A DNA stretch of 64,000 bases from Methanosarcina barkeri MS (GTDB taxonomy: Archaea; Halobacteriota; Methanosarcinia; Methanosarcinales; Methanosarcinaceae). A model generated the notes under the pieces. That model was not told where the DNA came from. It searched no databases and worked only from the letters and a program-made list of their open reading frames with translations. The translations under genes were made by a program, and so were the position numbers. Of this stretch, positions 934 to 27,573 are shown piece by piece. The stretch is taken from NCBI RefSeq assembly GCF_000970025.1, contig NZ_CP009528.1, forward strand, positions 3,769,168 to 3,833,167, in the 5' to 3' direction. Positions within the stretch are counted from its first letter, which is position 1; every line of letters begins with the position of its first letter.

Positions 934-1809
934 ATGGATAGAGCACGTATAATTGCAGAGACGGCAGCCCGGATTTCCAGAGAACTTGATGCTGCCGCAA
1001 TTATGGTTTCCGGAGAATTGAGTTTTGAAGGGATCGAAACTGGGGGAATTCCGGTCTACTACATCTCCATGCGCCCTAAAAGCATAATAGACCACCTGAT
1101 CTCCACTGGAAAGGATGGAAAAAATCCTATGAAGGAACTCGGCGACCAGATAAACCGTGAGGCTGCAGGCAACTCTGACCACCTTCAACAAGCTGCCGCC
1201 ATAGAATACGTGCTTGGAAGACTGGAAAATGGGATTATTGTAGGCGTAGTCGAAACCCGCGGCTCCAGTTCGATTATTGTACATAACCTCGACGAAAATC
1301 CCCTTATAAAAGCCATGAAGGAATGTCAGGAAAGGATAAAGCCGGAAGTGATGAGTGCAATCATGAAAATCTCTTTTGATATTGTCCTGACAGGTAGGGA
1401 AGGCAAAAAAATAGGAGCTGCCTTTATAATAGGCGATTCCGAAGAGGTTCTGAAACGCTCTCACCAGCTAATACTGAATCCTTACGCAGGTCACGATGAA
1501 ACGTATCGGAATATCCTTGACAAGAAAAACTGGGAATCCATAAAGGAATTTTCCCAGCTTGACGGAGTTTTTGTGGTAGACGAAAACGGAATAATCCAGG
1601 CTGCAGGCCGCTACCTTGACGTTGATGCAAAAAATGTGGATATTGAGAAAGGACTGGGAGGCAGACACGTTTCAGCAGCCGCAATCAGCAGAGATACGGT
1701 TGCGATTGCAGTTACGGTATCCGAGTCAGGCGGAATTATAAGGGTATATAAAGACGCGAAAGAAATAATCTGCATGGACTGCCTGAAACCTGCGGTAAGA
1801 TACATCTAA
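934..1809 (+). CDS. dacZ: Archaeal diadenylate cyclase (DisA_N / DacZ type)
   Basis: This 291-residue protein should condense two ATP into the second messenger cyclic di-AMP in the cytoplasm. The C-terminal half has the DisA_N signatures: DGVFVVDENG near residue 210 and GLGGRH followed by SAAAIS near 240-251, the archaeal form of the DGA and RHR motifs. The N-terminal half (RARIIAETAARISREL onward) resembles the pyruvate-kinase C-terminal-like domain of archaeal DacZ. The frame stays open back to 805, but that part is repeat sequence. ATG 934 follows a GGTGGAT ribosome-binding site and gives the family's usual length. The gene is monocistronic. Cyclic di-AMP commonly controls potassium and osmotic balance, which is of interest given the channel and CPA2 antiporter genes later in the window. 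Confidence 0.85.
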   Translation: MDRARIIAETAARISRELDAAAIMVSGELSFEGIETGGIPVYYISMRPKSIIDHLISTGKDGKNPMKELGDQINREAAGNSDHLQQAAAIEYVLGRLENGIIVGVVETRGSSSIIVHNLDENPLIKAMKECQERIKPEVMSAIMKISFDIVLTGREGKKIGAAFIIGDSEEVLKRSHQLILNPYAGHDETYRNILDKKNWESIKEFSQLDGVFVVDENGIIQAAGRYLDVDAKNVDIEKGLGGRHVSAAAISRDTVAIAVTVSESGGIIRVYKDAKEIICMDCLKPAVRYI

Positions 1810-3065: not shown

Positions 3066-3306
3066 AGTCATAAGGCTAGAAATAATGGTTCTTCGCCATT
3101 TTCTATGGATAAGATGATTTTCAATTCGATCCTGCATTGGTTTTTATGAAGACATTACAAGGATATCCACACAAAGCAACAAAGAGCCAAAATAAGGCTA
3201 AATATGTAAAAGAAAAAGAACGGAAAAAAGGAAGAAAAAAGGAAGAGAAAAAAATGAGAACTTAAAAAACTACTCTTTTTTAATTACAAATCTAAAGATA
3301 GTTCTC

Positions 3307-4596
3307 TTAATCTCTCCTTTTTATAAAATACTGACAAAGAATTATTCCGAAAACTCCTGCGAGCAACTCGAAACCAGAAGCTTTTGCGGAAGTTACTATT
3401 CCGGTTTTTTCCTCAGGAAGACTACTATTATTGTTGACATCTTTTAAATCGTCAGCCTTACTCTCGAGAAGAGAAGCAGAGGATGTAGACGGTGAAGACT
3501 CATTCGAGAGAGATTCATTCAAGAGAGACTCAGAATTATTGACACCTGAAGAAGTATTATCCTCTACAGTAACGTCGGTTGCCGGATATATAACATACCC
3601 TTCAGGAGAAGTGCTTCCCTTTCCTTCATCCGAGGTCTGGAAATACCAGGAATCGGTAAAGTAGTTCTTTTTATCTTTGTCAAGGGTCAAAGTGATAGAA
3701 TTTGAATTTTTAAGGACAATTTCGTTTGCAGAAGCTTCTTTTACCTCAAAACCCTGATATTCATCCCCATTCTCAATGACCATCACTTTATCTTTGTCGA
3801 TGAGCCAGGTATACTTGAAGACTGCAAAGGAATCAGTAGCACTCGTGAATACGGAATCTACATAGGTTACAAAGTAGAGCTGGTCTTTCTTATCACCGAA
3901 ATCCGCAGTTGCAGTAAAGGTTTTATCAGCAACATTTCCACTTGTGTTTACAATTCCGGACTCAATTTCTTCCCCATTTTTATCTAGTGAAAACCATACC
4001 TTTTCGCCATCAACGTCAACCTGGTTAACTACCAGAGAGTAATTGCTCCCGAGATCCCAGGAATCTCCAGCCTTTAATGTTTTTTTATCGCTGGAAGGCT
4101 GAGAAATTACAAGTTTTGCAAGCCGGGTGGAGTCGTTTCCAACGGCAACATACGGTTTTCCAAACCAGGGAAGCTGATAATAGAACATACCACCAAGCTC
4201 CTTAGGAGTTGTACTGGCATCAAGTTCAAGGTCGGAAACAACTCCATATTTGGAAGAAAACGGACGGGTAGTATACACAAGTTCTCCTTCACCGATTACA
4301 TGATTTCCGGGGTGGCCCTTGCCAAGTTCATCCTGGCCGTCTTTTTCGACATATTGAAGGCGTTCACCCCACCAGTTTTCAGAAGCTACAAAACCTTTAT
4401 GCTTGTTTACAGGATAGGCAAAGCCGCCAAAAGTGGTAGCATTCCAGCAGAATCCATCGGATAAAGTTTCGTTTGTGTCGAGGGGCAAACCAGAGATAGC
4501 TGGAGCTGGAGCTGCAAAACCCGAAGGAACGATCAACGAACAAACTGTAAGCGAAGCAAACAGCAAAAGTAAAATTTTTTTAGCATAGGATGTCAT
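3307..4596 (-). CDS. Single-domain Methanosarcina S-layer-family surface protein
   Basis: This 429-residue exported protein has a signal peptide (KKILLLLFASLTVCSLIVPS) ending near Ala-Ala-Pro at residue 30. One S-layer homology domain runs from about 50 to 345, recognisable by FCWNATTFGGFAYPVN, LGGMFYYQLPWFGKPYVAV and YTWLIDKDKVMVIENGDEYQ. A Ser/Asn-rich linker (about 350-400) follows, then a C-terminal hydrophobic helix with SGF before it and KRRD after it. That tail resembles the PGF-CTERM anchor of archaeal surface proteins, with Ser in place of Pro. Major Methanosarcina S-layer proteins normally carry two copies of this domain, so this shorter version is more likely an accessory envelope protein. 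Several NxS/T sequons suggest glycosylation. Confidence 0.8.
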   Translation of the reverse strand: MTSYAKKILLLLFASLTVCSLIVPSGFAAPAPAISGLPLDTNETLSDGFCWNATTFGGFAYPVNKHKGFVASENWWGERLQYVEKDGQDELGKGHPGNHVIGEGELVYTTRPFSSKYGVVSDLELDASTTPKELGGMFYYQLPWFGKPYVAVGNDSTRLAKLVISQPSSDKKTLKAGDSWDLGSNYSLVVNQVDVDGEKVWFSLDKNGEEIESGIVNTSGNVADKTFTATADFGDKKDQLYFVTYVDSVFTSATDSFAVFKYTWLIDKDKVMVIENGDEYQGFEVKEASANEIVLKNSNSITLTLDKDKKNYFTDSWYFQTSDEGKGSTSPEGYVIYPATDVTVEDNTSSGVNNSESLLNESLSNESSPSTSSASLLESKADDLKDVNNNSSLPEEKTGIVTSAKASGFELLAGVFGIILCQYFIKRRD

Positions 4597-6714: not shown

Positions 6715-9104
6715 GCATTTTTCCCTCCATGCATTTCAATTTCCTCTTCAGTTCCGTTCCTGGCATTCATTTCTGAGATTTCTCCAGCGAGTTTTTCCTT
6801 GAATTCTTCTTCAGTTCCCTTTTCGAAGTTTTGTCCGAATTCCTTATCAATTTCTTCTTCGTTATCTTCAGGTTCGTTCTCGACTTCCGGATCCTCATGT
6901 TCCTCGCCCTCACCCTCAATCCTTTCTCCCTTCCTTTTCGGCTTCTGGCTCTTTAAGTCCGATTCTCCGGGTGGGACCATCATAGCGATCTGGTCAGGAG
7001 AGGCAATCTGCTTTACAAAGCGGGGATCATTGAGTTCGTCGGCATAAATCCTGTAGATCTTTTTAGAGATGTCATTCTGATTAAAAGCCCCGGGGACGAC
7101 TTCGAGGATATAATCCCCATGTTTCCGGACAGCAGAAACAGGCCCGCCTATAACTCTCGTCTCGCCTTTGAGCTCAAGCCCGACTGCAATGCCGAGAGGA
7201 ATATCCTTAAAGTAATTGCGTTCCCCGCGGATGATAAAAGCTCCTTTTTTCACATATTCTCCTGATTCTGGAGTTTTGCTGACCTGCTCGGCTTTGACCC
7301 AGTAGCAGTCCCCACTGAAATGCCCTGCCTTCCAGAGGCTGGAATAAGAAACAGCAAACTGTGCCGCTTCCTGCAAGGTAGATTCTGGAACCTCTTCTCC
7401 GCCAGTCTTGATAACTGTGAGAGGAGCTCCCGGAGTTTGGGTATGGAAAACAAGGTCTCTCTTTTCCAGGTATTTCTTAAAAATATCTTCGTTGGTGTCT
7501 GCATCCCTGCCTCCCACAACAAAGAAGCCATCCGAGGATACAAACCACCTGAACCTGTCATACCAGTGTTTTTTCCGGGACGCATGAAGCTTTCTTCCTG
7601 CCTTTGCAGCCTTTGCCACGGATTTTTTCTCCATAGCCTTCCTGGTATCTTCGATAGCTTTGAGAGCTCCATCTCTTTTTTTGCTAAATTTCTTGACCTT
7701 TTCATAATACTCCTGAGCATTCTGCGGCACTGTCTTACGGATGTCAATGTTAATACTCTTCCCGTCCAGGTTTACAGTTACAGTTCCTGCCCGGGGGTCA
7801 ATATTTGTAATCTTTTGCGCAGCAGGCACGGTCTTTTTAGCCTGCTTCAGAATTGAGCGGATCTCGTCCCAGGAATACCCCTTTGACCTTGCGCTGTTGA
7901 GCACGGAAAGAAGCTCTTCGATACCCTGGTAGTTTGCATAGACTGTCTCAGCAAGAGTATTATTTTTCTCGATTTCTTTTTCGAACTTTTTAATGCTCCC
8001 TTCCTGTTGAAGAAGCCGCCGTTCATAAACGCCAAGTGCTTTTTCCTTTTTCTGAGCTGCTTTTACCTCTTCGATCTGTTCAAGTGCCTTTTTCCCAAAA
8101 AATTCATCAAGTGCCGTGTTAAAAGAATCAAAATACTCTTTTTCAAATCCTGAATAGCGAATAAGGTCAAAAGGAAGTACGTCGAAAGTTTCCAGCTTTC
8201 CGTTGATTTCCTTTTTCACATGCTGAGGCCTGAGCTTAGGAGCCTCACCTTCAACCCCGGCTTCGAGTTTAAGTTCGGTTTCGGGTTTAAGTTCGGTTTT
8301 GGGTTTAAGTTCGGTTTCTGGCTTAGACTCGATATCGGATTTAAGTTCAGTTTCAGTTTCAGCTTCTGTGTGGCCTTTATCTCCGGCTCCTATCCTCAAA
8401 AGCGGAGAAAAGAGATCGTGCATTGCATTACAGATCATGGAGGCGTCTTCTTCAGTTGCCTCCTTTGAAGGCTTTGATTTATCAATTCCTGCCCTGGCAC
8501 AGACTTCTTCTGCCAGAACTCCTCCCAGATTGAACCTTGTGGCAACCGTCCTGACGATATCAGACGTAGATCTGGAAAACTCCTTTAGAAGGTCAGAATC
8601 CTTTACCTTGAGAGGACTTATCTGTGCCTCAGGCAGTTCGTAAATTTCTCCACTCCGAAGCCGCCTATCCTTCATTGTTACAGGATTCATAGGCAGAATA
8701 ATCCTGTTTTCCGAATCGACAATAAGTATATTCCCAGGGGCGAAAAGCTCCACAATAAGATTACTGTGGACTCCAGCTCTCTCAACCCCAATTTTCACGA
8801 TCCTGTCAAAGTCGTGCTGCTCCACATATACAATCCTGCCTCCCATCAGGTATTTTCTAAGCAGCATTGGAAAAGCCTGGGGAAGCGTCGGGCTTGCCCT
8901 GAGGTATTTGCTTAGATGAATACGCTTCCCGGCCTCAATAACCAGGTTGTCCCTGCCCTGGTGAAAAACGTAAAGGTTGATGCGAATCTCCTCGTTCGTG
9001 GGCTGATAGATCTTCCCGATCTTCGCATCAATAATGGATTTTGGACCTGCTGACAGCTCGGCAACAACTGCAGCAACGTCGGCACTTGACATATCCTGCT
9101 TCAT
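6711..9104 (-). CDS. rqcH: RqcH/NFACT-family ribosome quality-control factor
   Basis: This 797-residue protein belongs to the NFACT family (bacterial RqcH, eukaryotic Rqc2/NEMF), which binds obstructed large subunits and recruits tRNA to add C-terminal tails. The NFACT-N domain covers about 1-230 and includes the Asp-Arg pair in HDFDRIVKIGV. Helix-hairpin-helix and coiled-coil regions cover about 320-490, and the NFACT-R domain (DUF814) about 505-640, with HWYDRFRWFVSSDGFFVVGG. A low-complexity linker near 245-280 repeats ETELKP, and the C-terminus is very acidic (about 705-790). The start is not certain: ATG 9092, four codons downstream, is an alternative. Coupling to pelota makes a two-gene ribosome-rescue operon. 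Confidence 0.9.
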   Translation of the reverse strand: MKQDMSSADVAAVVAELSAGPKSIIDAKIGKIYQPTNEEIRINLYVFHQGRDNLVIEAGKRIHLSKYLRASPTLPQAFPMLLRKYLMGGRIVYVEQHDFDRIVKIGVERAGVHSNLIVELFAPGNILIVDSENRIILPMNPVTMKDRRLRSGEIYELPEAQISPLKVKDSDLLKEFSRSTSDIVRTVATRFNLGGVLAEEVCARAGIDKSKPSKEATEEDASMICNAMHDLFSPLLRIGAGDKGHTEAETETELKSDIESKPETELKPKTELKPETELKLEAGVEGEAPKLRPQHVKKEINGKLETFDVLPFDLIRYSGFEKEYFDSFNTALDEFFGKKALEQIEEVKAAQKKEKALGVYERRLLQQEGSIKKFEKEIEKNNTLAETVYANYQGIEELLSVLNSARSKGYSWDEIRSILKQAKKTVPAAQKITNIDPRAGTVTVNLDGKSINIDIRKTVPQNAQEYYEKVKKFSKKRDGALKAIEDTRKAMEKKSVAKAAKAGRKLHASRKKHWYDRFRWFVSSDGFFVVGGRDADTNEDIFKKYLEKRDLVFHTQTPGAPLTVIKTGGEEVPESTLQEAAQFAVSYSSLWKAGHFSGDCYWVKAEQVSKTPESGEYVKKGAFIIRGERNYFKDIPLGIAVGLELKGETRVIGGPVSAVRKHGDYILEVVPGAFNQNDISKKIYRIYADELNDPRFVKQIASPDQIAMMVPPGESDLKSQKPKRKGERIEGEGEEHEDPEVENEPEDNEEEIDKEFGQNFEKGTEEEFKEKLAGEISEMNARNGTEEEIEMHGGKNA

Positions 9105-9188
9105 GAAGTGGATATAATAGAGGCTTTTGGTATAAGCATTACTGAAGAATTTAGTGAAATTAGATAAAAGTGAAGCGGCTCAGCACTC

Positions 9189-9218
9189 AGGCTCGGCGGC
9201 TTCGCACACTTCGAGCCT
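9189..9218. other. GC-rich hairpin
   Basis: AGGCTCG (9189-9195) and CGAGCCT (9212-9218) form a 7-bp stem around a 16-base GC-rich loop in an otherwise AT-rich spacer. It may be an RNA structure at the end of the caspase remnant transcript or a repeat fragment. Confidence 0.35.
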
Positions 9219-9290
9219 TCGATGATCCACCTTACGAATCAAATGGTAATAGTTTGGACATAAGTTGTAAAGGAGTAAAAGGAAAGAAGA

Positions 9291-9563
9291 TTACAATTTT
9301 CTCAAAAGGCGAAAATCCAAACCGAAGTTACCACCCCCAGGGTAGTATCCGTCAAGGTTTGCATTTTTCAGTATTTTTTCAATTTTAATCCTTGCGTCTA
9401 CAAAGGTATCATCTATTGATTCTTCAACTTCATCAAACCCACAAATATCTTTATTCAGAAGAACCTCCTTCATTGCGAGAACATCAGCTACTGCAAATCT
9501 CAATTCTTTATTGGAATTTGGATAATTGTTTCCAATAACAAACCCGACTCTTTTGCCAGTCAT
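9291..9563 (-). pseudogene. Caspase-domain remnant joined to an FGE-domain tail
   Basis: The 90-residue product starts like a C14 caspase (KRVGFVIGNNYPNSNKELRF, then AVADVLAMKEVLL), but stops before the catalytic His and Cys. Near residue 70 it changes abruptly to GGGNFGLDFRLLRKL, which is the C-terminal end of a formylglycine-generating-enzyme (SUMF1) domain; compare LANLGFRLLREL at the end of the neighbouring gene. The simplest reading is a caspase-FGE fusion gene that lost its middle by deletion. It lies 16 bases after the EACC1-like remnant on the same strand. Enzymatic activity is not expected. Confidence 0.7.
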
Positions 9564-18593: not shown

Positions 18594-19799
18594 TCAATTT
18601 TTTTTACAACCTGATTTTTTCCTGCTTTCTTTCTGACGGAAAATTTCCAATGGTGAGATATTCGGGACGGAGAGGTCCTGCCCTGCCTGATAGCCGTAGA
18701 GTTCCTGAAATTCCACAGCAAAGGAATGCATAAAAAGGGCATTTGGGATATCCATTGGACAGAGTTCTTCGCATTGTCCGCAGTTGATACAGGAATCTGC
18801 AACAAGAGAATAGCGTAGTGCATGAAAGGCAAAGGATGGAGGAACCTTTCCAGGGGTGATAGTAAAGTCTGATACTTTTGTTCCGGACAGGGCAGGACAT
18901 ACTTCAATGCAGGTATAGCACTTGATGCAACGTGAAGTCTCATCCACAAGCTGTTTCAGGCGGGTTTTTCCTTCCCCTAACGACTGAAAATCTTTTTCTC
19001 TCCAGCCCTCGGCCAGCTTCAGCATCGACTTTTCGATTTTCCCCCGAATCTCCACACCTTTTGGGACAGGGGGAAAAGTTTCAACCACGCCTGCAGTTTT
19101 TGCCTGTTTAAGTAGTTCTGCGCCTTTTGCGCTGCATACCTCAACAAAGGTTGCTTCCATACCCATAACGCCCCATTCTCCACAGGCAAGATCAGCCTGC
19201 CTTGGAATTTTCAGTTTGCAGCGCCTGCAGTTACTTCTTCTTCCAAAGTTTGCCTCTTCCAATTTGTCTATGGGTATAGAAAACTCCTCTTCAGGAGTTT
19301 CAACGATAAACTTCCCCTTAGCAATCCTTTCCTTTTTAACCAAGTCAGGGTTAACTGCAAACGTTTCTACAATCATCTTCCTTGCCATTTCCGGACTTAT
19401 TGAGCCTCCGCAGTTTAGCCCAAGCATGAGGACATTTTCCAGCCTGACTTCTCCCCGCTTTGCAAGCTCATAAAGACCCATGACATCGCATCCTTTCAGG
19501 GCGACTGCAATTTTCAGGTTCTCTGCCTTTTCCAGGTACTTGCTGAAAAGCCTGGACAGAAGAAGGGTCCCGAAATGCAGGGAACCCGAAATTTCCGAAA
19601 TTTCTGCCGGGTCCGTAATCAGCACAGGTACAGCATCATAGATGTCGGCTCCTTTCCTGACCCCGAGCACCGCATCCACACTTCCGCTTTCCAGTGCAAA
19701 TTTCAATAGAGCTGAAACCGCACCGCCTGACTCACCTTTTTCCAGTAATTTCTGGTCACAAGCCTGGACATAAAACATGTCTCCTTCTGACGGTTTCAA
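18594..19799 (-). CDS. fdhB: F420-dependent formate dehydrogenase beta subunit
   Basis: This 401-residue iron-sulfur flavoprotein of the FrhB/FdhB family passes electrons between FdhA and coenzyme F420. The FrhB N-terminal region includes GESGGAVSALLKFALESG and the C-terminal region includes CRRCKLKIPRQADLACGEWG. Two ferredoxin-type clusters follow at CIKCYTCIEVCP (about 293-304) and CINCGQCEELCP (about 337-348). Its ATG overlaps the fdhA stop by four bases, so the subunits are coupled. It could also serve another F420 oxidoreductase, but the partner gene makes formate dehydrogenase most likely. Confidence 0.88.
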   Translation of the reverse strand: MKPSEGDMFYVQACDQKLLEKGESGGAVSALLKFALESGSVDAVLGVRKGADIYDAVPVLITDPAEISEISGSLHFGTLLLSRLFSKYLEKAENLKIAVALKGCDVMGLYELAKRGEVRLENVLMLGLNCGGSISPEMARKMIVETFAVNPDLVKKERIAKGKFIVETPEEEFSIPIDKLEEANFGRRSNCRRCKLKIPRQADLACGEWGVMGMEATFVEVCSAKGAELLKQAKTAGVVETFPPVPKGVEIRGKIEKSMLKLAEGWREKDFQSLGEGKTRLKQLVDETSRCIKCYTCIEVCPALSGTKVSDFTITPGKVPPSFAFHALRYSLVADSCINCGQCEELCPMDIPNALFMHSFAVEFQELYGYQAGQDLSVPNISPLEIFRQKESRKKSGCKKN

Positions 19800-21883
19800 A
19801 GCTGTCCCTCCAAAAGTTTACTTTCTTGAGGTTCTATTTTCTCAATTTTTACCGCACACGCCTTGTACTCCGGAATCTTTGCCACGGGGTCGAGAGCCCC
19901 GTTAGTCAGCAGGTTGGCTGCACATTCCTTAAAATGAAAAGGTATGAAGACAACCCCGGGTTTTATGTCTTCTGTGACCATTGAAGGGATTTCGATCTTC
20001 CCTCTCCGGGAAAGTACGCGGACTTTTTCTCGGTTGCGGATTCCCAACTTTTTTGCATCTTTAGGATTAAGCTCCACCCAGCCAGTTCTGACTTCGGAAG
20101 CAAGGGTTTTCGACCTGCGAGTCATAGTCCCTGTATGCCAGTGCCAGATGTTTCTTCCTGTAGTAAGAATGAAAGGATATTCCACATCCGGGACTTCGGC
20201 TGGGGGCTTCCATTCAATACCAGAAAACTCCGCCAGCCCATCAGAGGTGGAAAATTTTTCGGTATGCAGGATTGGAGTTCCTGGATGAGTTTTATCCGGG
20301 CAGGGCCACTGAAGAGAGTCAGGTTTTTCAAGGCGCTCATAGCTCATGCCTCCATACTGAGGGGTAACCTTTGAGATTTCCTCAAAAATCTCTGCTTCGT
20401 TCATGTAGGAAAATTGAGGCCCGTACCCCATACACCCGGCAAGTTCGCAAATGATGCGCCAGTCTGCCTTAGCATCTCCCGGAGGGTCTACAGCTTTCCT
20501 GATCCGCTGCACTCGACGTTCAGTATTGGTCTGGGTCCCGTTCTTTTCTGCATAACAAGCCGCAGGCAAGACAACATCAGCAAGATTTGCAGTCTCGCTC
20601 AGGAAAATATCCTGCACGACCAGAAAGTCCAGTTGCTTCATGGCTTTTCTCACCTTGTTTAGATCCGGGTCCGAGAGCATGAAATTTTCTCCCATAACAT
20701 ACATGCACTTCACAGTCGATGTTCCTTCTGCAAGCTGTTCCATCAGCTCCGTAACCGTAAGCCCAGGGGCTTTCGGAAGTCCGCTCACCCCCCAGATAGA
20801 TTCCATTTTCCTGTGGTTTTTCGGATCTGCAACCTTCTGGTAGCCAGGATATACATCCGGCAAGCAGCCCATGTCACATGCTCCCTGTACATTATTTTGC
20901 CCTCGCAGTGGGTTGACACCTCCACCTGGAACTCCGAGGTTTCCGGTTAGAAGCATCAAGTTTGCCGTGGACCTCACGTTGTCAACTCCCACCGTATGTT
21001 GGGTGATACCCATTGAATAAATGAGAGCCGATGGTTTTGATTGGGCAATCCACTCGGCTGCGGTTTTTAAGTCATCCTCTGGCACCCCTGTGATTTTTGA
21101 GACGTTGGGCAGGGAATAGATCTCCTGCATAACCACGGATTTCATTTCCTCATAATTTTTAGTCCTTTTTGAGATAAATGCCGAATCTTCCCAGCCATTT
21201 TCTATAATATGGTGCATGAGTCCATTTAGGAGGGCAACGTCCGTGCCTGAATACATAGAAAGATGTAGATCTGCCTGTTTTGCCGTGGGCGTGCAACGAG
21301 GGTCTGCACAGACTATTTTAGCCCCCTTCTTTTTTGCAAGCATTACTCTTCTTCCAATGAGTGGGTGCTGCTCGAGGGTATTGCTGCCAATAATGAAAAT
21401 GCATTTAGACTCTTCAATGTCCAAGATGGAATTCGTCATGGCTCCCGAGCCGAAAACTGCGGCAAGGCCAGCGACTGTAGAGGAATGACAGAGCCTTGCG
21501 CAGTGGTCAACGTTAGAAGTCTTAAGGACAACACGGGCGAATTTCTGCATAAGGTAGTTTTCTTCGTTCGAGGTTCTTGCTGAAGAGAGGCAAACAATTT
21601 CTTCAGGGAGAAAAGTCATGAATCTCCCTGCTATAAGGGCCAGGGCTTCTTCCCAACTTGTCTCTACAAGCTGCCCGTTTTCCCTCACCAGCGGCTTTAC
21701 AAGTCTGTCCTTGCTATGGATGAACTCATAAGCGTATCTGCCCTTTTGACAGAGCTTTCCTGCATTAACTGGAGCCCGGTGCCAGGGCTCAATGCCTACA
21801 GCTCTCCCATCTTTTACCACAATGTTAAACCCACATCCTGTCCCACAGTAAGGACAAGTCGTGTGCACATATTTCAATTCCAT
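19796..21883 (-). CDS. fdhA: Formate dehydrogenase alpha subunit (molybdopterin, Cys type)
   Basis: This 695-residue catalytic subunit should oxidise formate to CO2 at a bis-MGD molybdenum or tungsten site. The N-terminal 4Fe-4S motif is CPYCGTGCGFNIVVKDG with the fourth Cys in GKLCQKG. The active site reads CARLCHSSTVAGL near residue 137, with Cys in the place of selenocysteine followed by the catalytic His. TGNLGVPGGGVNPLRGQNN is the usual substrate/cofactor segment. The frame extends upstream to 21970, but ATG 21883 follows AGGAGAAAA and begins directly with MELKYVHTTCPYC, as in the family. FmdB-like, fdhA and fdhB form one minus-strand operon. Confidence 0.9.
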   Translation of the reverse strand: MELKYVHTTCPYCGTGCGFNIVVKDGRAVGIEPWHRAPVNAGKLCQKGRYAYEFIHSKDRLVKPLVRENGQLVETSWEEALALIAGRFMTFLPEEIVCLSSARTSNEENYLMQKFARVVLKTSNVDHCARLCHSSTVAGLAAVFGSGAMTNSILDIEESKCIFIIGSNTLEQHPLIGRRVMLAKKKGAKIVCADPRCTPTAKQADLHLSMYSGTDVALLNGLMHHIIENGWEDSAFISKRTKNYEEMKSVVMQEIYSLPNVSKITGVPEDDLKTAAEWIAQSKPSALIYSMGITQHTVGVDNVRSTANLMLLTGNLGVPGGGVNPLRGQNNVQGACDMGCLPDVYPGYQKVADPKNHRKMESIWGVSGLPKAPGLTVTELMEQLAEGTSTVKCMYVMGENFMLSDPDLNKVRKAMKQLDFLVVQDIFLSETANLADVVLPAACYAEKNGTQTNTERRVQRIRKAVDPPGDAKADWRIICELAGCMGYGPQFSYMNEAEIFEEISKVTPQYGGMSYERLEKPDSLQWPCPDKTHPGTPILHTEKFSTSDGLAEFSGIEWKPPAEVPDVEYPFILTTGRNIWHWHTGTMTRRSKTLASEVRTGWVELNPKDAKKLGIRNREKVRVLSRRGKIEIPSMVTEDIKPGVVFIPFHFKECAANLLTNGALDPVAKIPEYKACAVKIEKIEPQESKLLEGQL

Positions 21884-21997: not shown

Positions 21998-23362
21998 TCA
22001 TAGTACTCCAGGCAAAATTGCAGGCATTGATTCCTCTTGCTTAAATGCAGATTGGAGAAAACCAGTCTGAGTTTTTCCTTCTTTTATTTTTTCAAAAAGC
22101 TGTTTTAAGGTATCTTCATTACTCTGAGTGAATTTAAATGGGGAATCAAGGAACGGTTCAAAGTAAATAGGCACATCATCAAGCCTGTAGAAAGTCCCTT
22201 CACACTCTATGGAGTCAACTACTCCCGGAAGCACAATATCTGAGATAGACGTAGTTGGACAGGGAATTGTATCCAGGCAAATCAAAGGAATTTCTGAAAG
22301 GTAAGCTGCACAGTCAGGGGGAATCTGACTCAAAAGATCAGAACACATTACAAAAGCTGCATCCACGTCTTTTTCTCGAAGCAAATCTACGGTTGTGAAT
22401 TCTCCAGGGTTGTAACGTGGATATCCACGCATGAAGTCAAGCCCAAAGGGATACCCATACATGTAAGAAGCAACCTGGCTAAAACCTGCCGCGTTGCAGC
22501 GACTGCGGATAACTCCAATGGTAAATTTGGAATAATTGTTCAGCTCTTTCACAAAGTTCATGGCAATTTCAATATTCCTGTACTTCCCAGGAGATGAAGA
22601 CAGTCCAACTCCTACTGAGATAGTCCCAAAATTGCAGTTCTTCATTATACCGAGCATCTCTTCCATAACAGAAATCGGAACTCCTGTAATCTCCTCTACG
22701 GAATGATGAGGAGTTTTTCCATGTAAAAGCGTCAAGAGCGCGCTTATTAGCTCATAGTCGGAGTCCGGTTTAAGCTGCACATGCAGGTCAGAAGCTTTAG
22801 CAGTTAGAGTTTTTCTTGGGTCTACAGTAATGATTGTCCTGTCAAAACGCCCGCGTTTGGTCCAGTAACCTCTTGGGAAAACCCCATATCTGGACATCTG
22901 CCTGGGCATGGATTCAAGTGGATTTGTTCCCCAGTAAACCAAAAGGTCGGCCCTGTTTTTCTTCTGCCCTTCAGTTGCACCGACTTTTCCGGCTTCCTGA
23001 GTTCCCATTACTGTGGCCCCATTGCCAGTTGTATCTACAATTGCACCCAGATATTCCCCTATCATAAGCCCCACTTCATGTGCTTCACAGGAAGTTTCGC
23101 TGCCTATGGAAATCAGTGGACGCTTAGCCGAAGACAGGATGTCTGCAGCTATTTGAAGGGCTCCGTCCCAGGAAACCGGCCTTAATTTTCCTCCGAACTT
23201 TAGAAGAGGCTGTTTAAACCTTTGGGGACTTGTAACCTCATTAAATCTGGAAATTCCCATCTTGCATACATTTTTAGCTTCAATCTTTCCACCCTTGATT
23301 TCAACCTGGATATCGTCGCAGGCAGCCCCACAGACAGGACAGACTATATTTTTGTGGATCAT
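21998..23362 (-). CDS. FmdB/FwdB-like molybdopterin protein lacking the Cys-His active-site pair
   Basis: This 454-residue protein is clearly related to the catalytic B subunit of formylmethanofuran dehydrogenase. It has CPVCGAACDDIQVEI at the N-terminus, KKNRADLLVYWGTNP near 120-134, DFMRGYPRYNPGEFTTVDLL near 310, and CEGTFYRLDDVPI near the end. Where FmdB/FwdB proteins carry Cys/Sec-His-Gly-Pro about 22 residues before KNRAD, this protein has Gly-Asn-Gly-Ala. The metal-ligating Cys and catalytic His are therefore missing. No other fmd/fwd subunit is beside it; instead fdhA and fdhB follow after 114 bases. It may be a structural or electron-transfer partner of Fdh. ATG 23362 after CGGAG is preferred to GTG 23368. 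Confidence 0.8.
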   Translation of the reverse strand: MIHKNIVCPVCGAACDDIQVEIKGGKIEAKNVCKMGISRFNEVTSPQRFKQPLLKFGGKLRPVSWDGALQIAADILSSAKRPLISIGSETSCEAHEVGLMIGEYLGAIVDTTGNGATVMGTQEAGKVGATEGQKKNRADLLVYWGTNPLESMPRQMSRYGVFPRGYWTKRGRFDRTIITVDPRKTLTAKASDLHVQLKPDSDYELISALLTLLHGKTPHHSVEEITGVPISVMEEMLGIMKNCNFGTISVGVGLSSSPGKYRNIEIAMNFVKELNNYSKFTIGVIRSRCNAAGFSQVASYMYGYPFGLDFMRGYPRYNPGEFTTVDLLREKDVDAAFVMCSDLLSQIPPDCAAYLSEIPLICLDTIPCPTTSISDIVLPGVVDSIECEGTFYRLDDVPIYFEPFLDSPFKFTQSNEDTLKQLFEKIKEGKTQTGFLQSAFKQEESMPAILPGVL

Positions 23363-23368
23363 ACTCAC

Positions 23369-23970
23369 TGTTCTCCGACATAAAATTTTGATATTGTATA
23401 TTCAGTACACTTTTCAGAAAAAATCGACAGCAACATCTCGTCTTTCATTTAACTTACCTCTCAACATTGTTCTGTACACTGCACAGCAGTTCGTTTTCAT
23501 GCTAATGAACAGTGAACAATAATTTCACAGCACTGTACCATTTTTATGAACTAGTACTTCAATGTCAACAGGTTTTCAGGAATATGCCTTTTCCCTGCAT
23601 TCTGGAAGACGGGTGGGGGAATTCAGGAGAGAACATACCTTTCCAGATCCCAATAGAAAAAAACCATGTTCAGATTTTTTGCTGTTATTTACCAGTTAGT
23701 AGATTTCCAGACCTACATTTGTTACCAGTAAACTACATTCTATTTCAAATTCATACGATTAATATAAAGAATTTGTATTGAGAAATAAATTTGTAACTCA
23801 GATATAAATATATCGGCGCTTCACTGTTTTGAGCGGAAATTTTATGTTCCCATTCAGAAGTTGACAATAGATAAAAAACTGACCTTATTAAGTTCATAAG
23901 GTTCATATGTAGATATGGTTATATAGTAGTTAATAGGAATATAACTTCCGTCTTAAATAGAGGATCAAAT
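23369..23970. promoter_or_regulatory. Divergent spacer between fmdB-like/fdh and mop/mod
   Basis: This 600-bp AT-rich region must hold the promoters of the divergent fmdB-like-fdhAB and mop transcripts. ATTGTTCTGTACACTG near 23466 faces CAGTGAACAAT near 23509 as a partial inverted repeat, and CATTGTTCT recurs before modA. No gene is supported. Confidence 0.4.
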
Positions 23971-24181
23971 ATGAAACTAAGCGCACGCAACGTCTTAGAA
24001 GGTAAGGTCAAAAGCATTATCCCCGAAATGGTAAACTCTGAAATCGTAATAGAATTACCAGGAGGAACAGAAAATCACTTTCATTATCACAAAAACATCA
24101 GCTGAAAGTCTGAACTTAAAAGTAGGAAGTGAGGTCTACGCAGCATTCAAGGCCTCAGGTGTGACGATAGCCACAGACTAA
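23971..24181 (+). pseudogene. mop: Molbindin (Mop), frameshifted
   Basis: The gene starts MKLSARNVLEGKVKSI and continues VIELPGGTE, a typical molybdate-binding Mop domain. After GGAACAGAA one extra A (within 24070-24075) shifts the frame and gives a stop after 44 codons. In the +1 frame the missing half follows intact: ITKTSAESLNLKVGSEVYAA, then FKASGVTIATD and a stop at 24181. A single-base deletion would restore a normal protein of about 69 residues. GAGGATC is a good RBS before ATG 23971. This could be a true pseudogene, a recent polymorphism or a sequencing error. It stands between the fdh operon and modABC. Confidence 0.88.
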
Positions 24182-24862: not shown

Positions 24863-25720
24863 GTGAGAAAAGAACTGATAGTTCTGCTAGTAGTATTAGG
24901 CGTATTCCTTGCAATAGGATGTACTGGTAATGGAAATGAAGCTACAAACGAAACGAGCACTCCAGTCGCAAATGAAACGGGTGCCCCAGTCGCAAATGAA
25001 ACTTCGGTTTCTGGGCAGAACCCTGACGCTATAACAGTATCTGCAGCTGCCAGCCTTACCGAAGCCTTTACGGATATGGAATCCCAGTTTGAAACCGAAA
25101 ACCCTGGCACAGATGTGAATTTAAATTTTGCAGGGTCAGGGAGTCTACGTCAGCAGATTGAAGGAGGAGCTCCAGTTGATGTTTTTGCTTCGGCTAACCA
25201 GAACCACATGGACATACTTGCCAATGAGACCCTTATCGACAACAGTACAAGGGAAGACTTTGCTGAGAATTCCCTTGTGCTCATAGTCCCTGCAAACAGC
25301 AACCTCAATATAACTGGAATAAAAGACCTGACAGCCTCAGATGTGGGAAAAATCAGCATTGGAAATCCAGAAACTGCCCCTGTAGGCAAATATACAACTC
25401 AGGCATTGACCGAAGCAGGCCTCTGGGACCAGTTAAAAGATAAGACTATACTTGCCGAAGATGTCAAACAAGTACTTACATATGTGGAAAGAGGAGAAGT
25501 AGATGCAGGCTTTGTGTATATGACCGATGCAAAGACCGCAGACCCCGGAACTATAAATATCGTTGCTACTGTCCCTGTAAATACTTCTATCAGTTATCCT
25601 ATAGCTGTGGTTTCTGATTCCGATAACAAAGAAGAGGCACAGGAATTCGTGGATTTCGTAACTGGAGAAGAAGGACAGAAAATACTGGAAAAATACGGAT
25701 TTACTCCAGAATCCGAATAA
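24863..25720 (+). CDS. modA: Molybdate/tungstate ABC transporter substrate-binding lipoprotein
   Basis: This 285-residue exported protein captures oxyanions outside the membrane. The N-terminal hydrophobic segment ends in a lipobox-like LAIGC at residue 21, followed by an Asn/Thr-rich linker with a repeated PVANET. The ModA fold begins ITVSAAASLTEAFTDMESQF. The anion-site segments are SAAASL, NFAGSGSLRQQIEGGAPVDV and the hinge region with GEVDAGFVYMTDA. The start is GTG 24863 after GTAGGTG. It leads the modABC operon and probably serves the molybdopterin enzymes encoded just upstream. Selectivity for molybdate or tungstate cannot be read with confidence. Confidence 0.92.
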   Translation: MRKELIVLLVVLGVFLAIGCTGNGNEATNETSTPVANETGAPVANETSVSGQNPDAITVSAAASLTEAFTDMESQFETENPGTDVNLNFAGSGSLRQQIEGGAPVDVFASANQNHMDILANETLIDNSTREDFAENSLVLIVPANSNLNITGIKDLTASDVGKISIGNPETAPVGKYTTQALTEAGLWDQLKDKTILAEDVKQVLTYVERGEVDAGFVYMTDAKTADPGTINIVATVPVNTSISYPIAVVSDSDNKEEAQEFVDFVTGEEGQKILEKYGFTPESE

Positions 25721-25741: not shown

Positions 25742-26419
25742 ATGATCTACATGATGGACAAGATATGGTTTCCTTTATCCCTTACGCTCTGGGTAGCCGC
25801 CATATCGTCTATTCTTGTACTTTGCAGTGGCGTAACCATAGCTTACGTGTTTGCAAGGCGTGATTTTAGGGGAAAATGGCTTGCGGAACTATTCGTGACC
25901 CTTCCCCTTGTCCTCCCTCCCACTGTAATTGGTTACCTTCTTGTGATCCTGGTGGGAAGAAATGGGGTTCTTGGGCAGACGATTTTCAATGTTCTGGGAA
26001 CCGGGGTCATGTTTACCTGGCAGGCAGCAGTTATTGCGGCGTATACTGTTTCCCTTCCCCTCATGGTACATACCGCGAAAGCTGCCATTGAAGGAGTAGA
26101 CAGGGAAATAGAGTACGCTGCCTATATCCTTGGAAAAAGTGAATTTGAGACTGTTCTGCAAATAACACTTCCTCTTGCAAAAAAGGGAATACTGGCAGGA
26201 CTGATACTCAGTTTTGCCAGGGCTATTGGAGAATTCGGGGCAACCCTCATGCTGGCAGGAAATATCCCGGGAAAAACGAACACAATGTCGATTTCAATAT
26301 ACAGCGCATTTCAGGCAGGCAATAACGAACTTGCCAATCTGCTTGTGTTGATCCTGGTCTTTATGTCCTTGCTGACCATTGCACTGACCGGCAGATTCGT
26401 AGAAAAACTTGAGGTATGA
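25742..26419 (+). CDS. modB: Molybdate ABC transporter permease
   Basis: This 225-residue membrane protein has five or six transmembrane segments and the permease coupling signature ARAIGEFGATLMLAG near residue 160, followed by IPGKTNTMSISIYSAF. VTLPLVLPPTVIGYLLVI is typical of ModB/CysW permeases. It starts 21 bases after modA with only a weak RBS, and its stop overlaps the modC start in ATGA. Confidence 0.93.
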   Translation: MIYMMDKIWFPLSLTLWVAAISSILVLCSGVTIAYVFARRDFRGKWLAELFVTLPLVLPPTVIGYLLVILVGRNGVLGQTIFNVLGTGVMFTWQAAVIAAYTVSLPLMVHTAKAAIEGVDREIEYAAYILGKSEFETVLQITLPLAKKGILAGLILSFARAIGEFGATLMLAGNIPGKTNTMSISIYSAFQAGNNELANLLVLILVFMSLLTIALTGRFVEKLEV

Positions 26420-27573
26420 GATTGGGCATAAAAGTTGACCTTAAAAAACAGTATAAAGAAGCTGAAATCAATGGAAAAAAAAGTACTAAGAAAGCTTTTA
26501 CAAGTACTAAGAAAGCTTTTACGTTAGATATCAGCTTTGAGATGGGAAACGAACTTGTCGTACTTTTTGGGCCTTCAGGATCAGGAAAGACCACGTTGTT
26601 CAAATGTATTTCAGGTATCACGGAACCTGATGATGGAAAAATAACTGTGGGAAGTAAAGTTTACTACGACAAAAACCAGAAAATTAACCTGCCCATCCAG
26701 AAACGCAATCTTGGCTATGTTTTTCAGAACTATACCCTCTTTCCTCACATGAATGTTAGAAAAAACATAGAATGCGGCCTCAAAGGCTGGGAAAAAGAGG
26801 ACAAGGAAGTGAGGGTTGCAGAAATGCTGAATCTTATCCATATTGAGGAACTGGAAAACCGTTACCCTTCGCAGTTATCAGGTGGGCAGAAGCAGAGAGT
26901 TGCTCTGGCAAGGGCTCTTGCCCCCAAACCAGGGATTCTGCTTCTGGATGAACCCTTTTCCGCACTTGATATGGGAATAAGAACCAAACTTGCCGAAAGA
27001 ATAAAAAATCTGCAAAACAAGATCGGAATACCATTGCTATTCATTACCCACAACTTTGAAGAAGCTTTCCTGCTGGCTGATAGAATTCTTATCTTATATG
27101 AGGGGAATGCACAGCAGTTCGGAACCCCGGAAGAAATCTTATATCACCCTGAAAACCGGCATGTAGCAGACCTCACAGGTTTATCAAACATTTTTGATGA
27201 AGCTAAAGTAGAAAGGTATGATGAAGAATCAAAAAATATAATATTAAAAAGTGGGGATATGAGAATAAAAGTAAAATCTCAAAACCTCAAACCTGGAGAT
27301 AAAGTTTCCTGGGGAATATATCCCGAGAACATAACTCTTCTTTCACCGGATTCTGGTCCTGAAAATCAGAGTGAAAACATCTATTCTGCGCATGTCAATA
27401 GTATCATCAATAAAGGACCAAAAAAACGAATCACATTTAAGCTTGTCAGACAAAACAAAACTCTGATTGCAGAAGTTCCTGCACAGTTTGTTGATTCCAT
27501 GAAGCTTTATGCAGGTGGTTTATGCCTAGTTAAACTGGAAACGAGTAAAGTGGTGGCATTCCGTAGCTTATAA
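26416..27573 (+). CDS. modC: Molybdate ABC transporter ATP-binding protein
   Basis: This 385-residue ATPase has Walker A GPSGSGKTTLFK (about 53-64), the Q-loop in YVFQNYTLF, signature LSGGQKQRVALARAL (about 154-168), Walker B ILLLDEPFSALD and the switch His in FITHNFEEAF. A C-terminal domain (about 280-385) of the MOP/TOBE type may sense intracellular molybdate. Near the N-terminus a 21-bp unit is duplicated (26482-26522), giving STKKAFT twice; this expands the segment before the first beta strand and is absent from typical ModC proteins. It is translationally coupled to modB. Confidence 0.92.
   Translation: MRLGIKVDLKKQYKEAEINGKKSTKKAFTSTKKAFTLDISFEMGNELVVLFGPSGSGKTTLFKCISGITEPDDGKITVGSKVYYDKNQKINLPIQKRNLGYVFQNYTLFPHMNVRKNIECGLKGWEKEDKEVRVAEMLNLIHIEELENRYPSQLSGGQKQRVALARALAPKPGILLLDEPFSALDMGIRTKLAERIKNLQNKIGIPLLFITHNFEEAFLLADRILILYEGNAQQFGTPEEILYHPENRHVADLTGLSNIFDEAKVERYDEESKNIILKSGDMRIKVKSQNLKPGDKVSWGIYPENITLLSPDSGPENQSENIYSAHVNSIINKGPKKRITFKLVRQNKTLIAEVPAQFVDSMKLYAGGLCLVKLETSKVVAFRSL

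Follow-up and report, generated by a model that had tools for sequence, protein, structure and literature searches.

fmdB3 of Methanosarcina encodes an FmdB paralogue without the metal-site cysteine and histidine and appears to be the remnant of a collapsed fmd operon

In FmdB and FwdB, the Mo/W-ligating Cys, His119 and His290 have the roles assigned to them in the accessible text of PMC11656701. Two kinds of ligand-less relative are described without cofactor, as far as the available portions of PMC10100899 and PMC12054007 go: FhcB, regarded in both as a scaffold, and a Cys-less 'Molybdop' clade occurring with HdrA and FdhB in ANME, Methanolobus and Methanosarcina, for which PMC12054007 proposes a structural role. 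The gene considered here matches in name and species pattern the fmdB3 of a 2010 paper (PMC2838876), whose Table 1 assigns it to M. acetivorans and M. barkeri and marks it as missing from M. mazei; the accessible part of that paper lists fmdB3, with nothing on a dead site, its origin, a leader or its linkage. Beyond this listing the gene is apparently uncharacterised in the literature searched, and the fmdB values in the available text of an M. barkeri RNA-seq paper (PMC8196204) are given without locus tags, hence unusable for fmdB3.

We analysed a window of 64,000 nucleotides from Methanosarcina barkeri MS (genome G000), which has five FmdB-type genes including fmdB3 (21998..23362, minus strand). 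The longest reading frame (21998-23368) opens with GTG and encodes 456 aa; we prefer the ATG at 23362 (454 aa), the start given by the initial annotation, because the stop codon of a small upstream reading frame sits 2 nt ahead of it. The product is 74-77% identical to FmdB of the same genome, and its score against NCBIfam TIGR03129 (FmdB) is 597.7 bits in a profile search (cut-off 327.8). The closest solved chains are all FmdB or FwdB. A structure model of the protein alone, a check proposed by the initial annotation, likewise returned FwdB (5t5m/5t5i) as the first fold match, with mean pLDDT 70 and a TM score of about 0.5; pLDDT falls below 50 at residues 115-118 and 121-136, leaving the active-site loop too uncertain for judging pterin binding.

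The loss that distinguishes FmdB3 is confined largely to the metal site. Its segment VDTTG---NGATVMG aligns to VDSNATICHGPTLMG of FmdB/FwdB, such that a three-residue deletion plus substitutions remove both the metal-ligand Cys and the next His, about 21 residues before KNRAD (Cys115 here corresponds to Cys118 of M. wolfei, and His116 to His119). The initial annotation had described an FmdB-like protein lacking this pair, and alignment with FwdB/FmdB, together with the family score, upholds that description: a Cys or Sec ligand followed by His is absent from all 14 fmdB3 rows, and no other Cys takes the ligand position in any of the 14. Sequencing error was ruled out as the cause of the deletion, which recurs in nine genomes of different species. 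The remaining four FmdB paralogues of M. barkeri MS retain the ligand Cys, three as CHG and one as CLG.

Nearly all fmdB3 copies share the changes Cys to Gly, His119 to Asn, Gly289 to Ser, His348 to Gln and Ala34 to Val or Ile; Ala34 adjoins an FeS Cys and Gly289 adjoins Arg288. His290 is altered in two of 14 rows and is Arg in the copy in the window. Arg288 is retained in 13 of 14 rows, and the four-Cys [4Fe-4S] motif is intact in 13, the fourteenth being a fragment missing that end. Among 73 canonical FmdB, 196 columns are near-invariant, and FmdB3 keeps 153 of them; 85 of these columns are invariant in three tungsten FwdB as well, and of this pan-family set FmdB3 keeps 72. Its losses cluster around the metal site. 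The alignments show that the metal ligand, the gating His and second-shell residues have been lost while FeS ligands and scaffold stay, and the retained scaffold could still accommodate bis-MGD.

The gene was found in 14 of 30 Methanosarcina genomes and is absent from the other 16. Nine genomes carry the deletion (89-100% identical), and five carry an undeleted form with Gly-Asn for Cys-His, which looks like the intermediate. Four short tblastn rows and duplicates were dropped when the sequence set was assembled. In a tree inferred without active-site columns, the 14 fmdB3 rows form one clade inside Methanosarcina FmdB (support 94/85), as they did in an earlier quick tree with only the Cys/His loop removed (SH-aLRT 96). 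One fmdB3 row, UBA293 (L012), comes from outside the 30-genome panel. This topology shows what is evidently a single origin of fmdB3, within Methanosarcina.

Excluding the fragment L036, dN/dS has a median of 0.151 for deletion-type fmdB3 (36 pairs, range 0.070-0.229), 0.098 for the Gly-Asn type (6 pairs) and 0.040 for the canonical FmdB of Methanosarcina (206 pairs used out of 210). The gene is under purifying selection, looser than that on canonical FmdB. An N-terminal frame break occurs in G002, and the other 13 genomes have no stop within the match. Genome G006 has a 95-aa fmdB3 remnant, an FmdB N-terminal scrap lying 345 nt from modA. Separately, G001 contains, 18 kb from its fmdB3, a second, decayed copy of the leader, an fmdF scrap and the start of fmdB (L185 about 1500-1800, plus strand; G001:C1:1492167). 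We regard fmdB3 as dispensable because of its absence from 16 of the 30 genomes, the decay of this second copy and the G006 remnant.

The sequence preceding fmdB3 records its origin. A region of about 420 nt (23368..23790, minus strand) is 77-89% identical across all 14 fmdB3 genomes, and over 405 nt its similarity exceeds that of four-fold degenerate sites in all 78 pairs (medians 0.81 versus 0.62). Its 190 nt nearest the gene share 70-74% identity with the junction between fmdE and fmdF in canonical fmd operons, with a decayed fmdE 3' end now serving as leader sequence (23449..23600, minus strand). This is followed by a mini-ORF of 27 codons (23365..23448, minus strand; MKDEMLLSIF...) that is homologous to the beginning of fmdF in canonical operons. 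The mini-ORF is open in 14 of 15 loci examined, with 27-32 codons (the fifteenth, L137, has no upstream sequence), and across loci its stop lies 2 nt ahead of the fmdB3 start or overlaps it. These features suggest that a second copy of the operon lost fmdE and most of fmdF-A-C-D and that the fmdB left behind is translated by coupling; the homology shows fmdB3 to be, by all appearances, what survives of a duplicated fmd operon that has collapsed to leader, fmdF scrap and fmdB. The earlier statement that no other fmd subunits are adjacent is correct for intact genes, with no fmdA, fmdC or fmdD beside fmdB3, and misses the short fmdE/fmdF remnants directly upstream.

Within the conserved region we propose a candidate leader RNA of 116 nt (23457..23572, minus strand), in which the 5' arm CCTGTTGACATTG pairs with CAATGTTGAGAGG, the latter arm containing the ribosome-binding site of the mini-ORF. 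The stem was located by a pattern fixing both arms, which matched all 15 leaders (a first, too narrow pattern found five), and the 116-117-nt piece is predicted to fold in 15 of 15. Its z has a median of -3.5 and runs from -2.4 to -6.3, and when about 346 nt of context are included the stem is still expected to have 11-12 pairs. Seventeen canonical homologues used as a control gave z of about +0.2 to -2.0; the stem is absent from 16 of them, and one, L087 (fmd2 of G000), makes a partial stem of 7.3 pairs. The entire 353-nt leader folds no better than shuffles (z -0.28), and the 116-nt part alone exceeds them. Substitutions within the stem all preserve pairing (99.1% of cells paired), with no pair changed on both sides. 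Searched against 111 family genomes, a covariance model of the leader matched strongly (128-150 bits) in the 14 fmdB3 genomes and in no others; weaker matches (31-54 bits) apparently are mostly fmdE/fmdF junctions, one of them falling at the decayed copy in G001. Rfam returned three chance-level matches to the leader, none above gathering score, and no NrpR-type operator was found in the 450 nt upstream of fmdB3. As modelled, the leader RNA can mask the ribosome site of the mini-ORF.

The conserved surroundings of fmdB3 concern molybdenum. A divergent molbindin-like gene, frameshifted in M. barkeri MS (23971..24178, plus strand), is one that we take to be mop from its Mop/TOBE-like sequence and its modABC linkage, rather than from a family search. 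It lies about 600 nt from fmdB3 (1.8 kb in G002) in nine of 15 loci, of which one lacks upstream sequence altogether; the gene is split in G027 and gives a full-length match in G004, G029, G012, G024, G023, G002 and G001. Beyond it in the window are modA for the molybdate-binding protein (24863..25720, plus strand; TIGR01256, 222.7 bits, cut-off 62.5), modB for the permease (25742..26419, plus strand; TIGR02141, 232.9 bits, cut-off 182.6) and a modC-like ABC ATPase gene (26416..27573, plus strand), whose ModC score of 258.5 bits is below the cut-off of 285 and whose top matches stay under their own cut-offs. The modABC genes are found on the mop side in seven of 15 loci (G000, G004, G029, G001, G024, G023 and, as a fragment, G020). 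A second modA, 99% identical to that of the window, lies elsewhere in M. barkeri MS (G000:C2:2838817-2839671). Fe-only nitrogenase genes occur near fmdB3 in G003, G004 and G027 (family search in G003). On the other side, a gamma-carbonic anhydrase gene follows fmdB3 on the same strand in five of 14 loci (G029, G003, G027, G025 and, with stops, G020), for example directly behind it, in the place of fdhAB, at L128 10551-11072 (plus strand). As a true partner of FmdB3 this enzyme is a weak candidate, with a relative in 26 of 30 genomes, mostly away from fmdB3.

A dead site also occurs in an intact operon. In two bog/fen Methanosarcina MAGs, the FmdB of an fmd operon (L029/G016 7998-9305 and L034/G015 3109-4380, both plus strand) carries Tyr at the position of the ligand Cys, encoded by TAC in both; the L029 operon is complete (F, A, C, D, B). 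This FmdB also lacks Arg288, Gly289 and His348, and it probably originated independently of fmdB3. The FmdA of the operon shares 494 of 584 positions (85%) with canonical FmdA in the one pair compared, L029 versus L086, and retains the residues taken to be the metal ligands. No other FmdB above the TIGR03129 cut-off was found in G015 or G016 except an fwdB2-like one, in MAGs that are 92% and 73% complete. A sister relationship between the Tyr type and fmdB3 had SH-aLRT 87 in the quick tree and was lost once all active-site columns were removed; with those columns removed, a single clade of the two was not rejected (p-AU 0.205). A further paralogue, the FwdB2 type of the fwdGBD cluster, keeps the Cys, whereas its residues at the His119 and Arg288 positions are Leu and Val (L088 7745-9010, minus strand; G000:C2:1952750-1953976), with a 31-35% identical relative in most genomes of the genus.

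We propose, tentatively and with close to an even chance of being right, that FmdB3 is a conserved, CO2-inactive structural or regulatory FmdB, most likely joining FmdACD in trans in the manner of bacterial FhcB; the suggestion in the initial annotation of a repurposed subunit survives in this form. FmdB3 would replace FmdB beside FmdA, FmdC and FmdD supplied by the intact operon or operons. The resulting complex would keep the formyl-methanofuran hydrolase/formate ligase activity of FmdA without CO2 reduction or oxidation, and could release or take up free formate, or just keep a store of FmdACD and pterin. Molybdenum supply, acting through the mop/modABC neighbourhood and the leader RNA able to hide a ribosome site, would probably set its output. 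A bolder version is quite unlikely: that a dead FmdB controls Methanosarcina Fmd, with its synthesis under a new archaeal leader RNA that responds to molybdenum or pterin status, and that its swap-in makes Fmd a formyl-methanofuran hydrolase/formate ligase. Such a complex would be the counterpart of Fhc in archaea, arisen at least twice (fmdB3 and the Tyr-type bog operon).

Several other roles would fit parts of this evidence. FmdB3 could be a cofactor reserve or chaperone whose pocket binds bis-MGD, with or without Mo/W, and buffers it or passes it on when molybdenum is short. We consider this unlikely, though a serious contender: the FeS Cys and most pan-family invariant residues are in place, and the divergent mop, modABC and nearby Fe-only nitrogenase genes are consistent with it, but the mod linkage is missing in about half of the loci, and the available text of PMC10100899 and PMC12054007 describes two relatives that lack the ligand, FhcB and the HdrA-linked clade, as cofactor-free. 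The same FmdB scaffold around a dead site would also suit a decoy that ties up FmdD or FmdA and so reduces Fmd activity while doing no chemistry itself, its synthesis perhaps gated by the strongly conserved leader; sequence hardly separates such a dominant-negative protein from a structural subunit, and we think it quite unlikely. In arsenite oxidase, Mo is held by dithiolenes only, with no protein ligand. Were FmdB3 to hold Mo/W in this way and act on a different substrate, the retention of Arg288 and the scaffold and the consistent replacement of the same residues would be understandable, but the gating His and His348 are gone too and the loci share no substrate genes, making new catalysis improbable.

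The initial annotation paired fmdB3 with formate dehydrogenase, and here the comparison went against it: a lack of conserved fdhAB linkage, which it had named as a refutation, is what the genomes show. Downstream in the window are fdhA for the F420-dependent alpha subunit (19796..21883, minus strand, from ATG 21883, in a reading frame open from GTG 21970; TIGR01591, 906.4 bits, cut-off 666.25) and fdhB for the F420-reducing beta subunit (18594..19799, minus strand; PF04432 and PF04422 above cut-off). The fdhA start is about 115 nt from fmdB3, at a junction nearly identical in G000 and G004, and a Fdh-Hdr-Fmd complex is known from Methanospirillum (structure 7bkb). That FmdB3 is part of a complex with FdhAB is nevertheless very improbable. 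The linkage exists in only these two of 14 genomes, and the other 12 fmdB3 genomes have no FdhA match at E<=1e-100. Close FdhA (75-87% identity) in G010, G021 and G037 share a different neighbourhood without FmdB, and therefore fdhAB behind fmdB3 is a derived arrangement, to which fmdB3 is prior. In FdhA of the window the CxxCxxxC cluster motif and the LCHS active site are both in place, which, with its score as a complete FdhA, implies that formate dehydrogenase needs no FmdB. We judge the adjacency to be a recent, incidental coincidence of place. If FmdB3 does serve as a CO2-inactive subunit beside FmdACD, FdhAB could, speculatively and in G000 and G004 only, oxidise the formate of that complex with F420. 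We give equally little credence to fmdB3 being a functionless duplicate in slow decay. Its dN/dS is about four times that of FmdB, and the G006 remnant, the lost second copy in G001 and the frame break in G002 point the same way, but all 36 deletion-type pairs fall at 0.07-0.23, 13 genomes have no stop inside the match, and the upstream region exceeds four-fold sites in every one of the 78 pairs.

Methanosarcina appear to carry a selected, non-CO2-reducing FmdB, so that counts or transcripts of "fmdB" genes would not be readable as CO2-reducing capacity. If FmdB3 joins FmdACD, this would explain how formate and formyl-methanofuran could be exchanged without CO2 chemistry, and the enzyme's two half reactions would be found separated in nature. 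Genetic manipulation is practicable in both M. acetivorans and M. barkeri.

Compared with FmdB/FwdB, FmdB3 shares the full-length TIGR03129 match, the FeS ligands, Arg288 and high identity within a genome, but it lacks Cys118 and His119, is changed at Gly289, His348 and Ala34, and has no operon partners. The HdrA-linked 'Molybdop' clade is likewise an archaeal molybdopterin-type protein without Cys118; unlike FmdB3, which falls within the FmdB clade, it stands apart from FmdB and sits with hdrA, as far as the accessible description goes, and no hdr genes were recognised beside fmdB3 in the reading frames of 18 regions read by eye. Bacterial FhcB (6s6y) has the FmdB-type fold and has lost the ligand Cys, and FmdB3 would resemble it as a scaffold beside an FmdA-type hydrolase. 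However, the two are 14-15% identical in the fold match, FhcB is a cofactor-free subunit of the Fhc complex, and FmdB3 arises inside Methanosarcina FmdB in a tree without an FhcB row. With these comparisons, fmdB3 falls among the non-catalytic members of the DMSO-reductase family.
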